From contig NZ_JYNS01000004.1 in assembly GCF_000934725.1 (NCBI RefSeq), forward strand, positions 62,001 through 126,000: DNA of 64,000 bases, written 5' to 3'. Shown piece by piece: positions 4,492 through 22,660 of the stretch. The notes under the pieces are model-generated. The model was not told the DNA's origin. It saw nothing but the letters and a program-made list of their open reading frames with translations, and made no database searches. The translations under genes were made by a program, and so were the position numbers. Source of the DNA: Methyloterricola oryzae (GTDB lineage: Bacteria; Pseudomonadota; Gammaproteobacteria; Methylococcales; Methylococcaceae). Every line of letters starts with the position of its first letter. Position 1 is the stretch's first letter.

Positions 4492-6708
4492 CTACTGGCA
4501 GAGCAAGGTCCCATTGCCGCTTTGCACATTGCAGTTAAGCGTGAGGGAACCGCCGGAGGTGGACGTAATCTTTAAGCTACGGGGCTGTGCAGCACCCTTG
4601 ATGGCCCACGTGGAAACCTGTGGTGCTGTTGTTGTCTTGGCTCCTGTACCCCAATTTGTGCTGCTCCCATCCAGAGCGATTTCCGTCAGTGTCAGCAATG
4701 CCGTGGAATCGCTGGTGGTAGCCGTCACGCTCAGCTTGCCAAAGGAGCCGCGCTTGCTGCTGGTGGTCAGCGTCCAACTTGCGCCACCCGCGGGAATGCT
4801 GAGGATGTCGCCGGCCGGAATGATGGTGACCGTTATCGAATCCGTGCTGGTGCCGAATTGATCCGTGGCTGTCAAGGTGAAGTGGTAGGTGCCCGGGACG
4901 GCAGCATAGAAGCTGGGCGTCAGCGTCGACGTGTTCAGCAGTGTCACCTTGGTGGAGTCTGTCGAATCTTGCGACCACAACTGAGTGCGCGGCCAAGCAA
5001 CATCATTGCTGTCCCAGCTCACATTGCCCGTCAGTTTCACTGTAGTCAGGGCCGTCGCGGTGAGATCAGCGCCAGCATTGACGACCGGCAAAGCACCGGT
5101 AGCGCTGCAATTGACCTTGGTTGGAGCTGGATTACCCGGCCACGGATCCAACTGAGCCAGCACCGCCGTACCGCTGCCAAAACCACCCACCGGCCCCGAA
5201 CCCTGCGCTAAAAATCCCAAATCCTGGAAGTTGAAGGGCACAAAGGGGTCGCCGAAGCTGTGGTTCTCCGGAAACACAAACTCGAAGTTGGGCAGCAGGA
5301 ACTGGCCGGCGGTGATGCCGTTGGCAGCCTTGATGCCCAGATCTCCGCCGGTTTGGCTTTTCATCACGTAATTGCGGGTCGGCGGCATGAAGGTGCCGCC
5401 CAGCACACGATAGACAAAGCGGCCCTTGACGGGCTGTGTAGACGGGTCGGTCGCCGCCAGCCAGCGGAGTTTGCCCTCGCCTGTGCAAGCGTTGACGTCC
5501 TGGGCATAGATGTCGATCAACCGGGTCGGGTCCGTGGTCGTGCCGACTACTGTCAGGCGTGTGGAAGCCTCCTGCAACAGGCCTTGTACGCCGGCGCCGC
5601 CGGTCCCGATAAGGATTTCCTCGACTGTCACATAGGCCGGCGGCACGCCCGGCGCGGTGAAGATGCCCAGGTTGTCCGAGAGCGTATGCGCGGAGATATA
5701 GAGATTGGCCGGCGTGTTGGCGCCGTTGGGGTCGATCTTGAAGAGCGTACCGGCATAGTCCACCTGATCGCCCACCATCATCGGCACCTGTTTGTAAGCG
5801 TCCGGCACGGCGGTATTGTTACCGTAGGCATCCAGCACCGGCGCGGGCATGGTGAAGCCGCGCAGGGGCGCATTGGAGGCCAGGAACGGGTCGGTGCCGA
5901 AGCTGGAGCCGTTCAACGGACGGTTGGTTAGCGGGCACTCCGTGTCCACCATAGGCGGCGCGACGCGCGGTATGCAGACCGGGATACCGGTCGCGGCGGA
6001 CACCGTTGAGTTCTCGTAGTCGCCGCTGAAGCGCGGATCTGGGCTGTGCACCAGGCCCCAGCGCCCCACCGGGTCGTTGACCTGGACCAGCGCCCCGCTG
6101 CACTTAGAAGACAGGATTCCCGAATTCGTGCAGTTCGAATCATTGAGCGTGCCGCCGATGCGGAGCGCGCCGATTTTGTAATCGATGTAATTGATGGTGC
6201 CGGACCCGGCATTGAGGCCCTGCTGGGTGACTGGTGAGATCAGGCCGACGATGTATCGTCCATTGACCACATTACCCTGGGCCCTGACCTCGAAGGACGG
6301 AAACGGTGCCGGCGCATCGGCCAGGGCAAGACCACTTTTTTCGTCCGGGTAAACCGGGTTGGCGGGAACGGGCGTGGTGACGCCAGGGGAACCAATGTAG
6401 CTGCCAACCGGCCGCGAATTTTCGGGATCGAAGAGGTCGGCCCAGGTCATGGTTGCCGCCGGCAATTGCAACAGCGTATTGCAAGGCACGATCAGCTTGT
6501 GTCCATTGACCGTCAGGGTGCCGCCCCGAAGACGCGGATCCGTTGCCTGACAGATCGTTCCAGCCGTATCCAAGCTGGCCTCCTGGATGAAGCCCAGAAT
6601 GTCAAATTGGGGCGTCGGCGCATCCTGGGCCTGCACACCCGTCGCCCCGAGCAGTCCCGCACCGAGGAGCAGCCTCGTCAGCCCAGTCATCGATTTCATG
6701 TTTTTCAC
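4492..6708 (-). CDS. Secreted Cys-rich protein with a PKD-like domain
   Basis: A 738-residue protein with a clear signal peptide ending GVQAQ (about residue 28) and a strong AAAGGTGA ribosome site. The mature part has ten cysteines, an even number consistent with disulfides outside the cytoplasm. About residues 540-630 form a PKD/Ig-like beta-sandwich, with VNAGADL at its start and FTLTATDQFG near its end. The last 100 residues are a Ser/Thr-rich beta domain ending in Cys. I do not recognise the first 530 residues. It is the first gene of a three-gene set with the diheme cytochrome and the multicopper oxidase, so a structural or metal-binding partner at the cell surface is plausible but unproven. 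No CXXCH heme motif is present. Confidence 0.8.
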   Translation of the reverse strand: MKNMKSMTGLTRLLLGAGLLGATGVQAQDAPTPQFDILGFIQEASLDTAGTICQATDPRLRGGTLTVNGHKLIVPCNTLLQLPAATMTWADLFDPENSRPVGSYIGSPGVTTPVPANPVYPDEKSGLALADAPAPFPSFEVRAQGNVVNGRYIVGLISPVTQQGLNAGSGTINYIDYKIGALRIGGTLNDSNCTNSGILSSKCSGALVQVNDPVGRWGLVHSPDPRFSGDYENSTVSAATGIPVCIPRVAPPMVDTECPLTNRPLNGSSFGTDPFLASNAPLRGFTMPAPVLDAYGNNTAVPDAYKQVPMMVGDQVDYAGTLFKIDPNGANTPANLYISAHTLSDNLGIFTAPGVPPAYVTVEEILIGTGGAGVQGLLQEASTRLTVVGTTTDPTRLIDIYAQDVNACTGEGKLRWLAATDPSTQPVKGRFVYRVLGGTFMPPTRNYVMKSQTGGDLGIKAANGITAGQFLLPNFEFVFPENHSFGDPFVPFNFQDLGFLAQGSGPVGGFGSGTAVLAQLDPWPGNPAPTKVNCSATGALPVVNAGADLTATALTTVKLTGNVSWDSNDVAWPRTQLWSQDSTDSTKVTLLNTSTLTPSFYAAVPGTYHFTLTATDQFGTSTDSITVTIIPAGDILSIPAGGASWTLTTSSKRGSFGKLSVTATTSDSTALLTLTEIALDGSSTNWGTGAKTTTAPQVSTWAIKGAAQPRSLKITSTSGGSLTLNCNVQSGNGTLLCQ

Positions 6709-7465
6709 CTTTAGCGAAATGTCGTAGTGCCAAAATCAACCGGCTTCGCGGCCCCGGGGCGGAACCGCTGGGATCGGAAGGCGCCGCCGCTGCGATCGTC
6801 GCGTCGCGTTTTCGAACCGGATTGAACCTTTTGCTTACAAGCAGGAACTCAGTCAATGAGAGCCAGAATGAACGCTCCAGAACCTGACAAGGAGCTGTCG
6901 TGCGATGCCGGCTGTCTCATACGCTTGTTAAGGTACAGGCAGCCGTGTCTCTATCGGATCGGGTAAGGAATGTAATTACTCTAGGGAAATACTGTAGTCA
7001 CGCCCCCTTTTTCACGGTACCCTAGGCTAGGGTTTCGTAGTGCGTTACGACGGTGGGAAGGCCACTAAACGTGCACAACTTCCTTGTCGTCGTGGCGAAG
7101 GGGCGGTTTGCGGTAGAGTCCCAGAGAAAGCCGCAATATCATGTGGCGCCCTACTCCCTGAAGATGCGTGTGAGTACGCTAGGCATGAGCCAGAATTCGG
7201 GATTAAGGTCCAAAACCAGATGCAAGTGCCGTAAGGTTGGCGCTCGTGTCGTTCCAGGCGCCACCGCCTAGTAGCAAGTGCCCGCGCTGAAAGTGGACCG
7301 ACTTTCGCACTACGGCGTTGTATAAAACGAAAAACTAAGAATGAGCATGGGCCGAAAGTTGTCCATGGGCACCGTGCCAAGGTCGCCCGTGTCGACTTGA
7401 CCCCAAGTACACTGCGCCACGCCACCGATCCGGCGCTTCCACTCTACCAAGAGAGAAGGCAAAAA
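6709..7465. other. Long intergenic region, no gene seen
   Basis: No frame here looks like a real gene. The stretch holds the promoters of two divergent units, the PKD-like gene (minus) and the sulfotransferase (plus). A perfect 15-bp palindrome, ACCCTAG-G-CTAGGGT, lies at 7019-7033, and a further CTAGGG copy occurs at 6981. Base composition is closer to AT/GC balance than in the flanking genes. Confidence 0.6.
7019..7033. promoter_or_regulatory. Perfect 15-bp palindrome, possible operator
   Basis: Two 7-bp arms, ACCCTAG and CTAGGGT, surround one central base. The half-site CTAGGG recurs 40 bp to the left at 6981. The site sits about 310 bp from the PKD-like start and 430 bp from the sulfotransferase start, so which gene it would serve is open. 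No known regulator is matched. Confidence 0.3.
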
Positions 7466-17580: not shown

Positions 17581-18309
17581 ATGAAAAAAGCCGCCAATCT
17601 TGCCCTCATACTTGCCAGCTCCCTGGCCATCGCACAGCCTTTGCTCGCCGCCGGGGTGGACAATGGCAGTTCCGGTAGCTCCGGCGCCTCCTCTTCGGGC
17701 ACCGCAGGCACCTCCGGCACCGCGGGTACGTCTGGAACCGCCGGCACATCGGGCACGTCAGGGACATCTGGCACGACCGGTACGTCCGGCACATCGGGCG
17801 TCGACGACAGCTCGGGCACTTCAGGAACATCGGGTACTTCCGGCGACGACAGAAGCTCTGGCACCTCCGGTTCGTCCGGCGATGACAGCAGTTCCGGCAG
17901 TTCGGGCAAAGCGAGCACCCATAAGGGCACCCTGGACCCCACCGGAGAAGTTTCCGGCGTGACCGTGAAGTACAAGCATGTCCACAAGCCCAAGTCCGAC
18001 CGCGACGAACTGGAAATCACCGCGAAAGCCAAATACGGCGACATCCTGACGCGCGATAACGCGGCGGAAATCGATCTGAAAGCCACCTTCACCGATGGCA
18101 CCGTCTGCTTCTTCGAAATCGATGATGTAAAGCAGAACAAGGCCGAGTACAAGATCAAGCTGCTTCAGCGTGGCTCCAAGGCGATCAAGGAGAAAGCCGG
18201 GGACTGCGACTTTGGTTCCGACAGCCTGAGTACCGTAGTCGCCAGCCCCACCACCATCACCCTGGAAGACGGAACGACGACCCACACGATCGCTAACGGC
18301 GACCTTTAA
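17581..18309 (+). CDS. Secreted Gly-Thr-Ser repeat protein
   Basis: A 242-residue exported protein. A signal peptide (1-23, MKKAANLALILASSLAIA onwards, cut near LLAA) is followed by about 80 residues built of GTSG, GTAG and SSG units with a few DD pairs (29-109). A charged globular C-terminal domain (110-242), rich in beta-type sequence, has two Cys that could form a disulfide. I do not recognise the C-terminal domain. TTGAGGATT supports the start and a strong terminator ends the unit. The next gene encodes a TibC/AAH-type heptosyltransferase; that family modifies Ser/Thr in repeats of exported proteins, so this protein is its best local candidate substrate. It is not an autotransporter: no beta-barrel domain is present. 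Confidence 0.85.
   Translation: MKKAANLALILASSLAIAQPLLAAGVDNGSSGSSGASSSGTAGTSGTAGTSGTAGTSGTSGTSGTTGTSGTSGVDDSSGTSGTSGTSGDDRSSGTSGSSGDDSSSGSSGKASTHKGTLDPTGEVSGVTVKYKHVHKPKSDRDELEITAKAKYGDILTRDNAAEIDLKATFTDGTVCFFEIDDVKQNKAEYKIKLLQRGSKAIKEKAGDCDFGSDSLSTVVASPTTITLEDGTTTHTIANGDL
17665..17910 (+). repeat. Coding low-complexity T/S-G repeat tract
   Basis: About 80 codons alternate Gly with Thr, Ser or Ala. Serine is written variously as TCT, TCG, TCA and TCC and threonine as ACC, ACG and ACA in neighbouring units, so the protein repeat is kept while the DNA repeat is scrambled. This argues for selection on the amino acids rather than recent slippage. Confidence 0.85.
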
Positions 18310-18378
18310 TCCAGCGTCACCAGCCACCGGGCCACCAGGCTCAAGGCGGCTGGCATTCCCGCTGCACTCGTTTAAGAT

Positions 18379-18412
18379 AAAGGCGTCCGGCCCCAAGGCC
18401 GGGCGCCTTTTT
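18379..18412 (+). terminator. Strong intrinsic terminator
   Basis: A 14-bp stem (18379-18392 with 18397-18410, one G-U pair) with a 4-nt loop ends in five T. It lies 70 nt after the stop of the repeat protein gene and separates it from the heptosyltransferase gene. Confidence 0.9.
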
Positions 18413-18462
18413 AATGCCCTACATTTAGCGCTTCAAAATTCCAGACACCCTATCCCCCCGCC

Positions 18463-19638
18463 ATGAGCAAGAAACGCCAGCAGCACGGCCGGCGCAACCG
18501 CCCCCCGATTCCGGCCCGTCCCAGTGCCAACGTTTGTAAGGTCCACTTCGTCGACGGCGCATTCTTCGAGGTGCTCGGCGCCATTCAGGACCGCTACCAG
18601 GTGCAGTTCATCGACGCGGAAACTGGCCAGGTGGTACACCAGGATGTCATCGGCAACAACCACTGGGTGCGCACGGCGCGCAAGTTCTTTACCCGCTGGC
18701 ATATTCGCGTGACGCGGGCGGAAAATGACTTCCCGGTGTTCGAGCATCACTATGACTGCAGCGGTCAGCGCGTCTATGTGGCCATGGAGTCAAAATCCCT
18801 CGGCGATACCCTGGCCTGGCTGCCCGCAGTCGAGGAATTCCGCCTCGCGCACGGCTGCCGCATGATCTGCTCAACGTTCATGAACGGCTTGTTCCGCGAA
18901 GCCTACCCGGAAATCGAATTCGTCGAACCCGGAACCACGGTGCACAATCTCTATGCCATGTACCGCCTGGGCCTGTTTTATTTTCCGGATGGCCGTCCCG
19001 ATCTGGACCGCAATCTTGGCAATGTGCGGGAGCGACCTCTGGGCAAGGCGGCCTTCGATATCCTCGGTCTGGACTATCAGGAAATCCGCCCCAGGCTATA
19101 CGCGCCCGAGCAGCCCAGGCCCGTCCAAGGCAAATATGTGTGCATCGGCGTGCATTCCACGGCCCAGGCGAAATACTGGAACAACCCCACAGGATGGAAG
19201 GAACTCGTGGACTACCTGGACAACCACGGCTATCAGGTCCTGCTCCTCTCGAAGGAAGGCATAGAGCACATGGGAAACCGGGTGCCCGATGGCGTCACCC
19301 CGGTTCCGGCAGGCCCCATTGCCACCATCGTCAACTACCTGCGCCACGCGGACCTGTTCGTCGGCGTGGGCAGCGGGCTTTCCTGGCTGGCCTGGACAGT
19401 CGGCTGCCCCACCTGCCTGATCAGCGGGTTCTCCTACCCCTACTCGGAACCGGAGAGCCTGATCCGGGTGTTTCCGCAGGGCGAGGTTTGCACCGGATGC
19501 TTCAACCGCTACAAACTGGATCCTGGCGACTGGAACTGGTGTCCCGACCACAAGGGCAGCGAGCGCATGTTCGAATGTTCGCGCCGCATTACGTCTCGAG
19601 AGGTCATCGCAGCCATCACGCCCCATCTGCAACCGTGA
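18463..19638 (+). CDS. TibC/AAH-type protein O-heptosyltransferase
   Basis: A 391-residue cytosolic glycosyltransferase of the bacterial autotransporter heptosyltransferase (BAHT) family. The N-terminal beta domain (22-95) includes KVHFVDGAFFEVLG and WHIRVTRAENDFPVFEHHY. A GT-B fold follows, with the likely catalytic Asp D115 in SLGDTLAWLPAVEEF and a donor-site loop GVGSGLSWLAW. Four C-terminal cysteines, C343, C346, C360 and C372, match the iron-binding finger of TibC. Family members add heptose from ADP-heptose to Ser/Thr of autotransporter adhesins such as TibA and AIDA-I. No autotransporter gene is near; the upstream gene encodes a secreted Thr/Ser repeat protein instead. A terminator separates them, so the link is by adjacency, not co-transcription. 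Confidence 0.85.
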   Translation: MSKKRQQHGRRNRPPIPARPSANVCKVHFVDGAFFEVLGAIQDRYQVQFIDAETGQVVHQDVIGNNHWVRTARKFFTRWHIRVTRAENDFPVFEHHYDCSGQRVYVAMESKSLGDTLAWLPAVEEFRLAHGCRMICSTFMNGLFREAYPEIEFVEPGTTVHNLYAMYRLGLFYFPDGRPDLDRNLGNVRERPLGKAAFDILGLDYQEIRPRLYAPEQPRPVQGKYVCIGVHSTAQAKYWNNPTGWKELVDYLDNHGYQVLLLSKEGIEHMGNRVPDGVTPVPAGPIATIVNYLRHADLFVGVGSGLSWLAWTVGCPTCLISGFSYPYSEPESLIRVFPQGEVCTGCFNRYKLDPGDWNWCPDHKGSERMFECSRRITSREVIAAITPHLQP

Positions 19639-19736: not shown

Positions 19737-20285
19737 ATGAGCGAAGTTTGCCACCCGCTGCGCCGACCACTGGCCGCCGTGCTAACAGCATGCCTGCTGC
19801 TGCTGGGCTGCGCCACCGAAACACCCCCGCCCCAGGATGACGATCCGGAAATCCGGGCCCTGGAACAGGAGCAGAGCCGCTTCAGCGAAAAGAAGCGGGA
19901 ACTGGTCAGCCGCGCGATCAAGCTGGAACCGAGTCAGCAAAATGCTTTCTGGCAGGAATACGAGCAGTACGAAGCGGAGTTGAAAACCTATTACGATGAA
20001 AAGTACCGGCTGATCCGCGACTACGCCAAGAACTACGAGATCATGACCGACGAGACGGCGGAAAGCCTCGCCGAACGCTCCTTCAAGTTGCAGCAGCGAC
20101 GGCTGGACCTGACCCGGAAGTACTTCAATAGCATCCGCAAGGCGGTTTCGGCCACCATCGCCGTGCGTTTCCTGCAGTTGGAAAACCGCATCAACCTGCT
20201 CTCCGACCTGAAGATTGCGAGCGAGATGCCTCTGATCGGCTTGCCGGAGGAACCGGATGACGACATGGACGAGAGCCAGCCCTGA
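19737..20285 (+). CDS. Predicted lipoprotein, coiled-coil
   Basis: A 182-residue protein with a lipobox LLGC at about residue 25 (Cys followed by Ala-Thr, so outer-membrane sorting is expected). The mature part is highly charged and helical (about 40-160), with regular spacing of Glu/Arg/Leu typical of a coiled coil, and an acidic tail. AAGGAA precedes the ATG. No family is recognised with certainty; it resembles periplasmic helical lipoproteins of stress-sensor type only in general form. It is followed by a second lipoprotein gene and a DUF4105 gene on the same strand, and may share their function. Confidence 0.8.
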   Translation: MSEVCHPLRRPLAAVLTACLLLLGCATETPPPQDDDPEIRALEQEQSRFSEKKRELVSRAIKLEPSQQNAFWQEYEQYEAELKTYYDEKYRLIRDYAKNYEIMTDETAESLAERSFKLQQRRLDLTRKYFNSIRKAVSATIAVRFLQLENRINLLSDLKIASEMPLIGLPEEPDDDMDESQP

Positions 20286-20352
20286 CGGCCACGTACCGCG
20301 GACCCTATCAAACCAGATTGATTTGGCGACATCGACCTCACAGGGAAAAACC

Positions 20353-20778
20353 ATGACCCGACCCTTGCATTGGCTTGCGCTGGCCTTGCCGCTGGCTCTG
20401 TACGGCTGTTCCTTTTCCGATAGCTCGAAAAGTTCTTCGGACTCGGGCTCCAGTCTGTCCGACTCGGCATCCAGTCCGTCCGGTTGGCTCTCCGACTCGT
20501 CCAAGACCGACAAGCAACGCTACCAGACCGACGTACGCGATTACACCGCCGAGTACACCCAGGCATCCTCGGGCAGCCTCGCTGGATATCGCGCCAAGGT
20601 CGCCACGCTGGCCGAAAAATACGGCATCATCGACTGGGAAAACGATCAGGAGACCTACGTGGCCATCGGCCAGGGCTTGAGAAAAGCGGGTCTCAAGGGA
20701 CCACAGTACGATGCCTTCAAGAATTCCCTGGGCGGCACGCCGGAGCGCATGCAGGCCATCGACCGCGGCTACCGTTAA
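20353..20778 (+). CDS. Small Ser-rich predicted lipoprotein
   Basis: A 141-residue lipoprotein with lipobox LYGC at about residue 18. A Ser/Asp-rich linker follows, then a helical domain of about 85 residues. The ATG with AGGGA upstream is chosen over a farther one because it alone places a signal peptide at the N-terminus. Its 3' end overlaps the apparent start of the DUF4105 gene by 68 bp, implying coupled translation or that the DUF4105 protein starts later at a rarer codon. I do not know the function. Confidence 0.8.
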   Translation: MTRPLHWLALALPLALYGCSFSDSSKSSSDSGSSLSDSASSPSGWLSDSSKTDKQRYQTDVRDYTAEYTQASSGSLAGYRAKVATLAEKYGIIDWENDQETYVAIGQGLRKAGLKGPQYDAFKNSLGGTPERMQAIDRGYR

Positions 20779-22660
20779 GCCCACGGCCCTCAGCTTCCTG
20801 AAGCTCCTTCCCCTGACCGGGTTATTGGCCTGCGCTCTGGCGCAGGCCGAGCCTCATCGGCTGGAGTTCCTGTACATCAACGCCAACGAGGGCACTGCCA
20901 GCGGCGGTCATGCCGCCCTACGCTTCGACCGCGACGTCTATCACTTTCAACACGTACCCCCAGGCCTCTTGCGTATAACGCGGGACGACTTCCCGCGTTT
21001 CCGCACCCTCTATGGCGACGCCGAGAACCGCAGCATCTTCGTGCACCGCATCGCGGTTTCCGAGGACACTTGGCAGTTCCTGCGCGACGGCTTCAATCGC
21101 CGGCTATTGATCGAGGACGAGCATTTCGGCCAGTTGGAAGGCCTGGAACGGGACATGGCGCTGTTGCGCCAGCAACTTGAACAGACCGGCAAACCTCAGC
21201 GGACTGTGGAAGTCAGCCTCAAGGGCGCCGGCTTGTACGCCCCGCCGCAAGCTGGCCATCCCGGTCCCGCGGATACCGCCAACACCGCCAGCGCGGGCCT
21301 GCGTGAGCGCATACGGGCCAACCTGGGCCAGGCAGCTTTCGACGGCCTGGGCGCCCGGTTGCGCGACGAGCTTGCCCAACTGCAGGCGCTGGACGAACTC
21401 CCTGACCCTGCCTCCCTCGATATGCGGCGTTTCCAGCCGGCCCGCTACGGCTATGCCGAACGCTTTCTGGACAGGCTGGGCACCCTGCACGCCTGGCAGG
21501 TACTCGCGCGCGCCGCCCCCCTGCAGCCCGGCGTGTTGCTAAGACCGCGCGGTCCGGAGTTTGCCCTGTCGCCGGCACGCCGGGCCGGCTTGCTGGCATT
21601 CCGAAATCGCCTGGAAAACTCCCTGGCGGCCCTTCCGTCTTCGCCCCACAGACAATGGGGCTACGCCCTGCTGGTGGGCATGGCGCGACTGGCCGCCATC
21701 GATGCCGCCCTGGCCGAAGGCCGCCTGATGGTGCTGAATCTGGCCGCCGAAGGAAGTCCGCAGGGACTTCGGCGCGAGGATGTCCTCCAGCGGGCGCAGA
21801 AGGAGTTCGCCAGCGCCCTCGCGGGCCTGGAAACCCCCTCGGAGGTGGATGAGCGCGCCTATGGGCGCCTGGAGCGCAGCGCCAATCTGCTGATACACGC
21901 CGGAAATCCGACACTCAGCGCCAACGACAGGCTGCCGCTGCTCAGTCTGCTCCCGCAAAGACCGGCCCCCGTCAGCGCCGTCGCCCCGCACATGCCCGCG
22001 CCACAACTCGCGGGTCAGTTGGCAAGGCTGGAATCGGCCGCCAAGGCTTATCGGGACAGGCTGGCCGAGCTCTATCCTTACCATCTCATCACCGCCAACT
22101 GCGTCAGCGAATTGTTCCGCAGCGTCGACGCGATTCTGGCATCGGAACGCGCGGCGGGCGGCTCCAAGATCACAGCGGCGGAATCCCGCCGGCGGCTGGG
22201 CGGCCACGTGGACCCCGGCTTTCCCAACAGCATACCCTTCGTCGCCTTTCGCGCGGTGGCGGCCCACTGGAACGTAGCAGAAACCTACGAACTGCCGTCC
22301 TGGCGTCATCGAAAACTACAGGACGCGCGCAACGAAAGCGGCTGGCTGGCAGATGTCCGCGAGTCCAATGTGCTTAGCGCCAGTCTATACCGCTGGCACC
22401 CGGAGGATGCGGCCTTCCTGGTCTTCACCGATGCCCAGCCTTGGCTTGGCCTGCTCGGCGGCCCGGTCAACGCCGCCATCGGCCTCGGCCAGGGCGTGGC
22501 CGGTCTCGCCACCCTGCCCTGGGACGCTGGCCGCAATCTACGCCAGGGCGCCAAGGGTTTTCTGATCAGTTTGCCGGAGACGGTGTTTATGGGTATCCGC
22601 AAGGGCTCGTACCCGGAACACCGGTCCGGGATTGCCGATCTTTCCGCCACCTCCGACTGA
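20711..22660 (+). CDS. DUF4105 family exported protein
   Basis: Up to 649 residues. A hydrophobic signal-like segment ends ALAQAEP, then RLEFLYINANEGTASGGHAALRF and, near the C-terminal third, PYHLITANCVSELF match the DUF4105 family, whose His and Cys-Asn residues suggest a papain-like or NlpC/P60-like fold. The start is uncertain: the ATG at 20711 gives a long basic leader, but the only later options before the signal segment are rare codons such as CTG at 20804. It forms a unit with the two lipoprotein genes just upstream. A cell-envelope hydrolase or acyltransferase is possible, not shown. Confidence 0.82.
   Translation: MPSRIPWAARRSACRPSTAATVKPTALSFLKLLPLTGLLACALAQAEPHRLEFLYINANEGTASGGHAALRFDRDVYHFQHVPPGLLRITRDDFPRFRTLYGDAENRSIFVHRIAVSEDTWQFLRDGFNRRLLIEDEHFGQLEGLERDMALLRQQLEQTGKPQRTVEVSLKGAGLYAPPQAGHPGPADTANTASAGLRERIRANLGQAAFDGLGARLRDELAQLQALDELPDPASLDMRRFQPARYGYAERFLDRLGTLHAWQVLARAAPLQPGVLLRPRGPEFALSPARRAGLLAFRNRLENSLAALPSSPHRQWGYALLVGMARLAAIDAALAEGRLMVLNLAAEGSPQGLRREDVLQRAQKEFASALAGLETPSEVDERAYGRLERSANLLIHAGNPTLSANDRLPLLSLLPQRPAPVSAVAPHMPAPQLAGQLARLESAAKAYRDRLAELYPYHLITANCVSELFRSVDAILASERAAGGSKITAAESRRRLGGHVDPGFPNSIPFVAFRAVAAHWNVAETYELPSWRHRKLQDARNESGWLADVRESNVLSASLYRWHPEDAAFLVFTDAQPWLGLLGGPVNAAIGLGQGVAGLATLPWDAGRNLRQGAKGFLISLPETVFMGIRKGSYPEHRSGIADLSATSD

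Follow-up and report, generated by a model that had tools for sequence, protein, structure and literature searches.

A glycosyltransferase of the TibC type encoded beside an exported Ser/Thr-rich repeat protein raises the question of what such an enzyme modifies when its neighbor is not an autotransporter, given that the characterized members of the family are thought to recognize a β-helix, not a simple repeat (PMC8151025). The pair lies in a 64,000-nucleotide stretch of Methyloterricola oryzae (assembly GCF_000934725.1, contig NZ_JYNS01000004.1, positions 62,001 to 126,000 of the forward strand), hereafter, the window, whose own numbering is used throughout. Both genes are on the plus strand.

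The gene at 18463–19638 encodes a 391-residue protein that an earlier note, made from the letters of the window, had read as a TibC/AAH-type heptosyltransferase; family models, a PDB match, and a predicted structure bear out the TibC type. The protein scores 307.8 bits against TIGR04414, the AAH/TibC equivalog model (cut-off 200), and matches TibC in the PDB at 1e-62. The N-terminal β domain claimed in the note falls under the Pfam TibC_1st cut-off (21.4 bits vs 27), but its strands are present in the AlphaFold model (pLDDT 90.8, from 27 sequences), which matches TibC (4rap) with a TM of 0.86. The catalytic-type Asp115 (18805–18807) aligns with TibC Asp110, and C343, C346, C360, and C372 (19489–19578), a putative Cys4 iron finger, align with TibC C339, C342, C358, and C370, as the note had proposed; in TibC, Asp110 is the catalytic base, Cys339, Cys342, Cys358, and Cys370 hold iron, and Thr226, Lys230, Arg286, and Trp305 bind ADP-heptose (PMC4358343). 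Three of these four donor-site residues are retained (T233, K237, and W308). Together, the comparisons establish the family, fold, and active-site residues of the enzyme, which is present as one copy in its own genome. A Glyco_transf_9 domain match (Pfam) would also suit an LPS core heptosyltransferase, but that identity is barely credible and we rejected it: LPS heptosyltransferase models (RfaC, RfaQ) reach 11–24 bits (24.4, 21.6, 19.7) against cut-offs of 185–467, WaaC structures match the fold of the enzyme model far more poorly than TibC does, and the open reading frames and Pfam matches of the window show no LPS cluster near the gene.

The fourth donor-site residue differs. TibC Arg286 touches the adenine, is termed highly conserved within the family, and when mutated abolishes or largely reduces activity (PMC4358343), and its position is occupied by Ile289 (19327–19329) in the window enzyme. 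The enzyme is a member of the TibC-fold family, yet it lacks two features of bacterial autotransporter heptosyltransferases (BAHT) in the strict sense, the donor-site Arg and an autotransporter partner.

The partner, and presumed glycosylation substrate, is a 242-residue protein encoded by the open reading frame at 17581–18309. A Sec-type signal peptide, MKKAANLALILASSLAIAQPLLAA (residues 1–24; 17581–17652), was recognized by eye, and related proteins begin alike. Beyond it lie 82 residues (17668–17913) that include 29 Ser, 23 Gly, and 16 Thr, with eleven GTS, three GTA, and three GSS triplets in a Gly-X-Y phase; 91% of the Gly fall in a single triplet phase, a value that none of 10,000 shuffles matches. 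Because the codons are varied (six for Ser, four for Gly, and four for Thr are in use), the repeat is maintained as protein, and we ruled out recent DNA slippage as its origin. The C-terminal domain (17917–18306), delineated by alignment, an order-wide search, and homologue sequences, has two conserved Cys and is predicted, at low confidence, to be mostly strand (pLDDT 58, from two sequences); a PDB search with this weak model returned nothing significant. Collagen (PF01391) is the sole Pfam match in the protein, at 29.8 bits barely over its cut-off of 27.2, and may reflect composition. Like bacterial and phage collagen-like proteins, the repeat has Gly at every third position, but it contains no Pro, so a triple helix is doubtful without modification. 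No barrel domain was found in the Pfam search, and the description in the earlier note of an exported non-autotransporter protein with about 80 residues of repeat and no β-barrel fits what was found.

A 14-bp hairpin followed by a T run (18379–18410, plus strand; −28.1 kcal/mol, z −4.4) separates the two genes and is likely an intrinsic terminator, although it is absent from the list of a consensus terminator scan. The two genes are therefore probably not one simple operon, and the hairpin suggests separate transcription or attenuation.

Co-occurrence in relatives had been set beforehand as the test of the pairing. In a scan of genome contigs and a search across the same bacterial order (301 genomes), with records found twice (under L and G handles) counted once, we recovered ten distinct close loci, whose enzymes form one clade (hereafter, clade A) and are, outside the window, 56–61% identical to the window enzyme. 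These are the window, Methylobacter BlB1, Methylobacter luteus, G493, two Methylococcaceae MAGs, Methylomicrobium RS1, G508, G564, and a Polaromonas-labelled MAG; a further match, G551, was left out as a truncated copy close to the end of its contig. An exported or lipid-anchored Ser/Thr-repeat protein adjoins the enzyme in all ten, of the GTSG type in nine and of poly-Ser in one. Gene orientation varies (six same-strand, four convergent), and so do the C-terminal domains of the partners, which belong to two sequence types without visible similarity or are missing, as in the Polaromonas-labelled MAG, where a 102-residue partner carries a lipobox-like Cys. Outside the order, a more distant enzyme (G337, 38% identical) adjoins a 112-residue GTSG protein, also with a lipobox-like Cys. 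Across the order, 8 of 9 clade-A genomes contain the GTSG DNA pattern, vs 9 of 292 others (p = 1.4e-10, or 7e-10 with the truncated G551 counted against the association). We reject chance adjacency on the strength of the ten loci, which differ in orientation, of the pattern test across the order, and of the pair in G337, and the association predicted for relatives was borne out. The clade-A counts are not independent events if a single cassette was inherited, but the orientation changes, the domain swaps, and G337 speak against such a cassette as the whole explanation of the pairing.

Some of these loci depart from the common pattern. In G492 and G493 the pattern matches stem from a second, unlinked GTSG protein, and the enzyme-adjacent repeats are interrupted; this second exported GTSG-repeat protein, encoded far from the enzyme in both Methylobacter genomes (L163 and L164, respectively), is a possible further substrate. 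In the poly-Ser case, G564 (L193), the neighbor (reverse strand, ~6200–7000) has poly-Ser where the others have GTSG, and its C-terminal domain is interrupted by an in-frame stop; it represents either a decaying gene or a sequencing error. In genomes that lack the enzyme, several pattern matches do not correspond to exported GTSG proteins; one such genome (G013, L158) encodes an exported protein with a PEP-CTERM-like tail and a short GTTG repeat. Near the enzyme, both the window (20257–22660) and G564 (L193:387–2741) encode a putative lipoprotein rich in Ser (NF033171) and a large exported protein of no assigned family.

The C-terminal domain behaves differently from the repeat. Homologues of the window domain among the 301 genomes carry a Ser/Thr repeat in G504, G508, and G564, whereas clear homologues in G005 and G480 have neither a Ser/Thr repeat nor an enzyme in their genomes. 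Over the whole domain family, the repeat is present in 4/4 enzyme-positive vs 0/8 enzyme-free genomes (p = 0.002; six of the eight enzyme-free matches are weak, and p = 0.07 on the six clear genomes only). The co-occurrence test that the earlier note proposed for the C-terminal domain is not the most telling one: the domain is interchangeable and, in G005 and G480, occurs without the enzyme. Because the enzyme-free homologues lack the Ser/Thr repeat, it is the repeat, as judged from these sequences, that tracks the enzyme, and the head domain does not. These distributions establish that enzyme and repeat are linked and vary together.

The same distributions bear on whether the enzyme instead modifies another protein, such as flagellin or the autotransporter of its own genome, with the repeat protein a mere linked neighbor or an unglycosylated stalk. 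The genome does encode one protein with an autotransporter barrel, the flagellin of ETEC is heptosylated (PMC5000012), the clade-A loci could be one inherited cassette, and a terminator-like hairpin stands between the genes. However, that autotransporter is without strand-loop-strand repeats, as is the whole genome in a TIGR04415 search, in which a substrate of this type was sought elsewhere in the genome and discarded; adjacency to a Ser/Thr repeat persists despite changes in orientation and C-terminal domain; and homologues in enzyme-free genomes are without the repeat. We regard another main target as improbable. A pattern scan found no other GTSG protein in the genome; the only other match (C1:604773) was discarded as an alternative frame opposite an acyltransferase-like open reading frame.

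A second enzyme clade exists in the same order, at 35–39% identity, and its readable neighbors are mostly AIDA-type strand-loop-strand proteins, four of which score 96–429 bits against TIGR04415 (cut-off 30). The nearest relatives of clade A are phage genes. A scan of IMG/VR returned 412 contigs with enzyme relatives, and the best 80 of these share 45–53% identity with the window enzyme, more than TibC does. The resulting tree places the methanotroph clade as one group (100/100) inside the phage enzymes and the strand-loop-strand enzymes with TibC in a separate group (100/100); G337 (L204) sits on a long branch of unsure placement. The isolated Microcystis phage Mel-JY01 carries the enzyme near its terminase, and PHROGs contain no family for it.

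The position of TibC Arg286 follows these divisions: it is Ile, Val, or Met in 10/10 clade-A enzymes that reach it, Arg in 17/17 enzymes of the strand-loop-strand clade, and other than Arg in 79/80 phage enzymes (best 80 of 412 contigs). As this Arg, whose mutation impairs TibC, is replaced, the donor of the clade is not directly transferable from TibC, and one may ask whether the same repeat receives another nucleotide sugar, so that the loss of the adenine contact would mark a glycan that is not heptose. Further in line with this, the TibC Pro300 position, a stereoselectivity position, is Gly in clade A, and adenylyltransferase-like genes of the phages also resemble glycerol-3-phosphate cytidylyltransferases and stay under the HldE cut-off. 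Against it, the counterparts of Thr226, Lys230, and Trp305 are kept. The genome also makes the substrate pathway of HldE: the search for hldE/gmhB-type genes called for in the earlier note, carried out for HldE, yielded an HldE kinase domain at 401.8 bits (cut-off 345), a sign of ADP-heptose supply. In the phage loci, in turn, there are genes for a kinase and a nucleotidyltransferase, and the models that match them best, in PHROG too, are those of the two HldE domains. Both HldE-like genes, kinase and adenylyltransferase, lie within 6 kb of the enzyme in 34/80 phage loci (best 80 of 412), as if the phages brought their own heptose activation, to judge from gene content. Such viral loci lie between L065 and L138, for example L079:7086–8211 and L110:7498–8630. 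In two examples the HldE heptose-kinase and heptose-adenylyltransferase models are the best matches but under cut-off. On balance we consider another sugar unlikely and heptose likely.

Phage relatives of the enzyme also bear on the repeat. GTSG/GSSG arrays lie within 6 kb of the enzyme in 7/80 loci (best 80 of 412) and occur anywhere in 18/50 larger phage contigs vs 0/50 for the reversed pattern; arrays near the phage enzymes are thus not general. In the reverse direction, when phage stretches were picked solely by the GTSG pattern, 5/80 contained the enzyme, against a base rate of roughly ≤0.1% of phage contigs, a rough estimate without a length-matched control. Only one of these five carries a search peptide of the IMG/VR scan, so the scan may have captured about a fifth of the enzymes. 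Where the two adjoin, tail-fibre-like proteins of up to ~2000 residues consist largely of GTSG/GSSG arrays (for example L087:3247–9205, L088:7192–11058, L110:8682–12053, L294, and L268) that match tail-fibre and collagen-like families, and the TibC-like enzyme beside them often forms part of a fusion with other glycosyltransferase or methyltransferase domains. The literature searched yielded nothing relevant on ADP-heptose genes of phages or on heptosylation of proteins in methanotrophs. A broader reading, which we put forward tentatively and hold at somewhat under even odds, is that a second branch of the TibC fold, common to methanotrophs and many phages, O-glycosylates Gly-Thr-Ser collagen-like repeats in bacterial secreted stalks and phage tail fibres, that the phages do so with heptose-activation genes of their own, and that the bacterial members have moved between phages and bacteria.

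With TibC/AAH BAHT enzymes (TIGR04414), a family that forms a dodecameric ring, the window enzyme shares the fold, the N-terminal β domain, the catalytic Asp, the Lys, Thr, and Trp of the donor site, the Cys4 finger, and linkage to a repeat-rich exported protein; it differs in the adenine-contact Arg, which is Ile, in a partner that is a short Gly-Thr-Ser repeat protein without β-helix or barrel, and in belonging to a separate clade most closely related to phage genes. The partners resemble AIDA-I/TibA/Ag43 passengers (TIGR04415) in being exported, repetitive, Ser/Thr-rich, and encoded beside the transferase, but have a 3-residue Gly-X-Y unit in place of the 38-residue strand-loop-strand unit, lack the barrel, and are free or lipid-anchored. 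In Gram-positive serine-rich adhesin systems, a surface protein likewise has a low-complexity, Ser-rich repeat that is coated by a dedicated glycosyltransferase, although enzyme family and repeat are unrelated to those of the window.

We infer from this genomic evidence, with a probability of roughly two in three, that the window enzyme is a cytoplasmic TibC-fold O-glycosyltransferase that acts mainly on the Ser/Thr of the adjacent repeat. The modification, its sugar, its location, and its biological role would be as follows. The enzyme would act in the cytoplasm on the repeat of its neighbor before Sec export, adding single sugars to many Ser, and perhaps Thr, residues. The sugar would most likely be D-glycero-D-manno-heptose, drawn from the ADP-heptose made for LPS. 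The resulting protein, secreted or attached to the surface, would form a densely glycosylated stalk of collagen-like or mucin-like character that ends in an interchangeable C-terminal head. Against this reading stand the replaced donor-site Arg, the recognition of a β-helix proposed for the characterized members (PMC8151025), and the possibility of one inherited cassette. TibC sites, moreover, have been mapped to Ser (PMC4358343), which suits GTSG and poly-Ser, whereas GTAG units would not be used. The general idea is not without precedent, since the flagellin of ETEC, a non-autotransporter, is reported to be heptosylated, by an enzyme not assigned there (PMC5000012). The view in the earlier note that substrates had been autotransporters only is relaxed by that report, while its observation that the partner here is a non-autotransporter stands.

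TibC-type enzymes probably have a second, uncharacterized class of target, which some phages may share. The existence of a clade that goes with a simple Gly-Thr-Ser repeat would extend the acceptors of the family to unstructured or collagen-like ones, and the BAHT substrate range, asked for β-helix passengers in PMC8151025, becomes testable in a two-gene construct. The phages, for their part, appear to carry genes for both sugar activation and transfer, in some cases beside tail-fibre genes. If the proposed modification is real, heptosylated proteins could be made with the repeat as a minimal substrate defined by its sequence.
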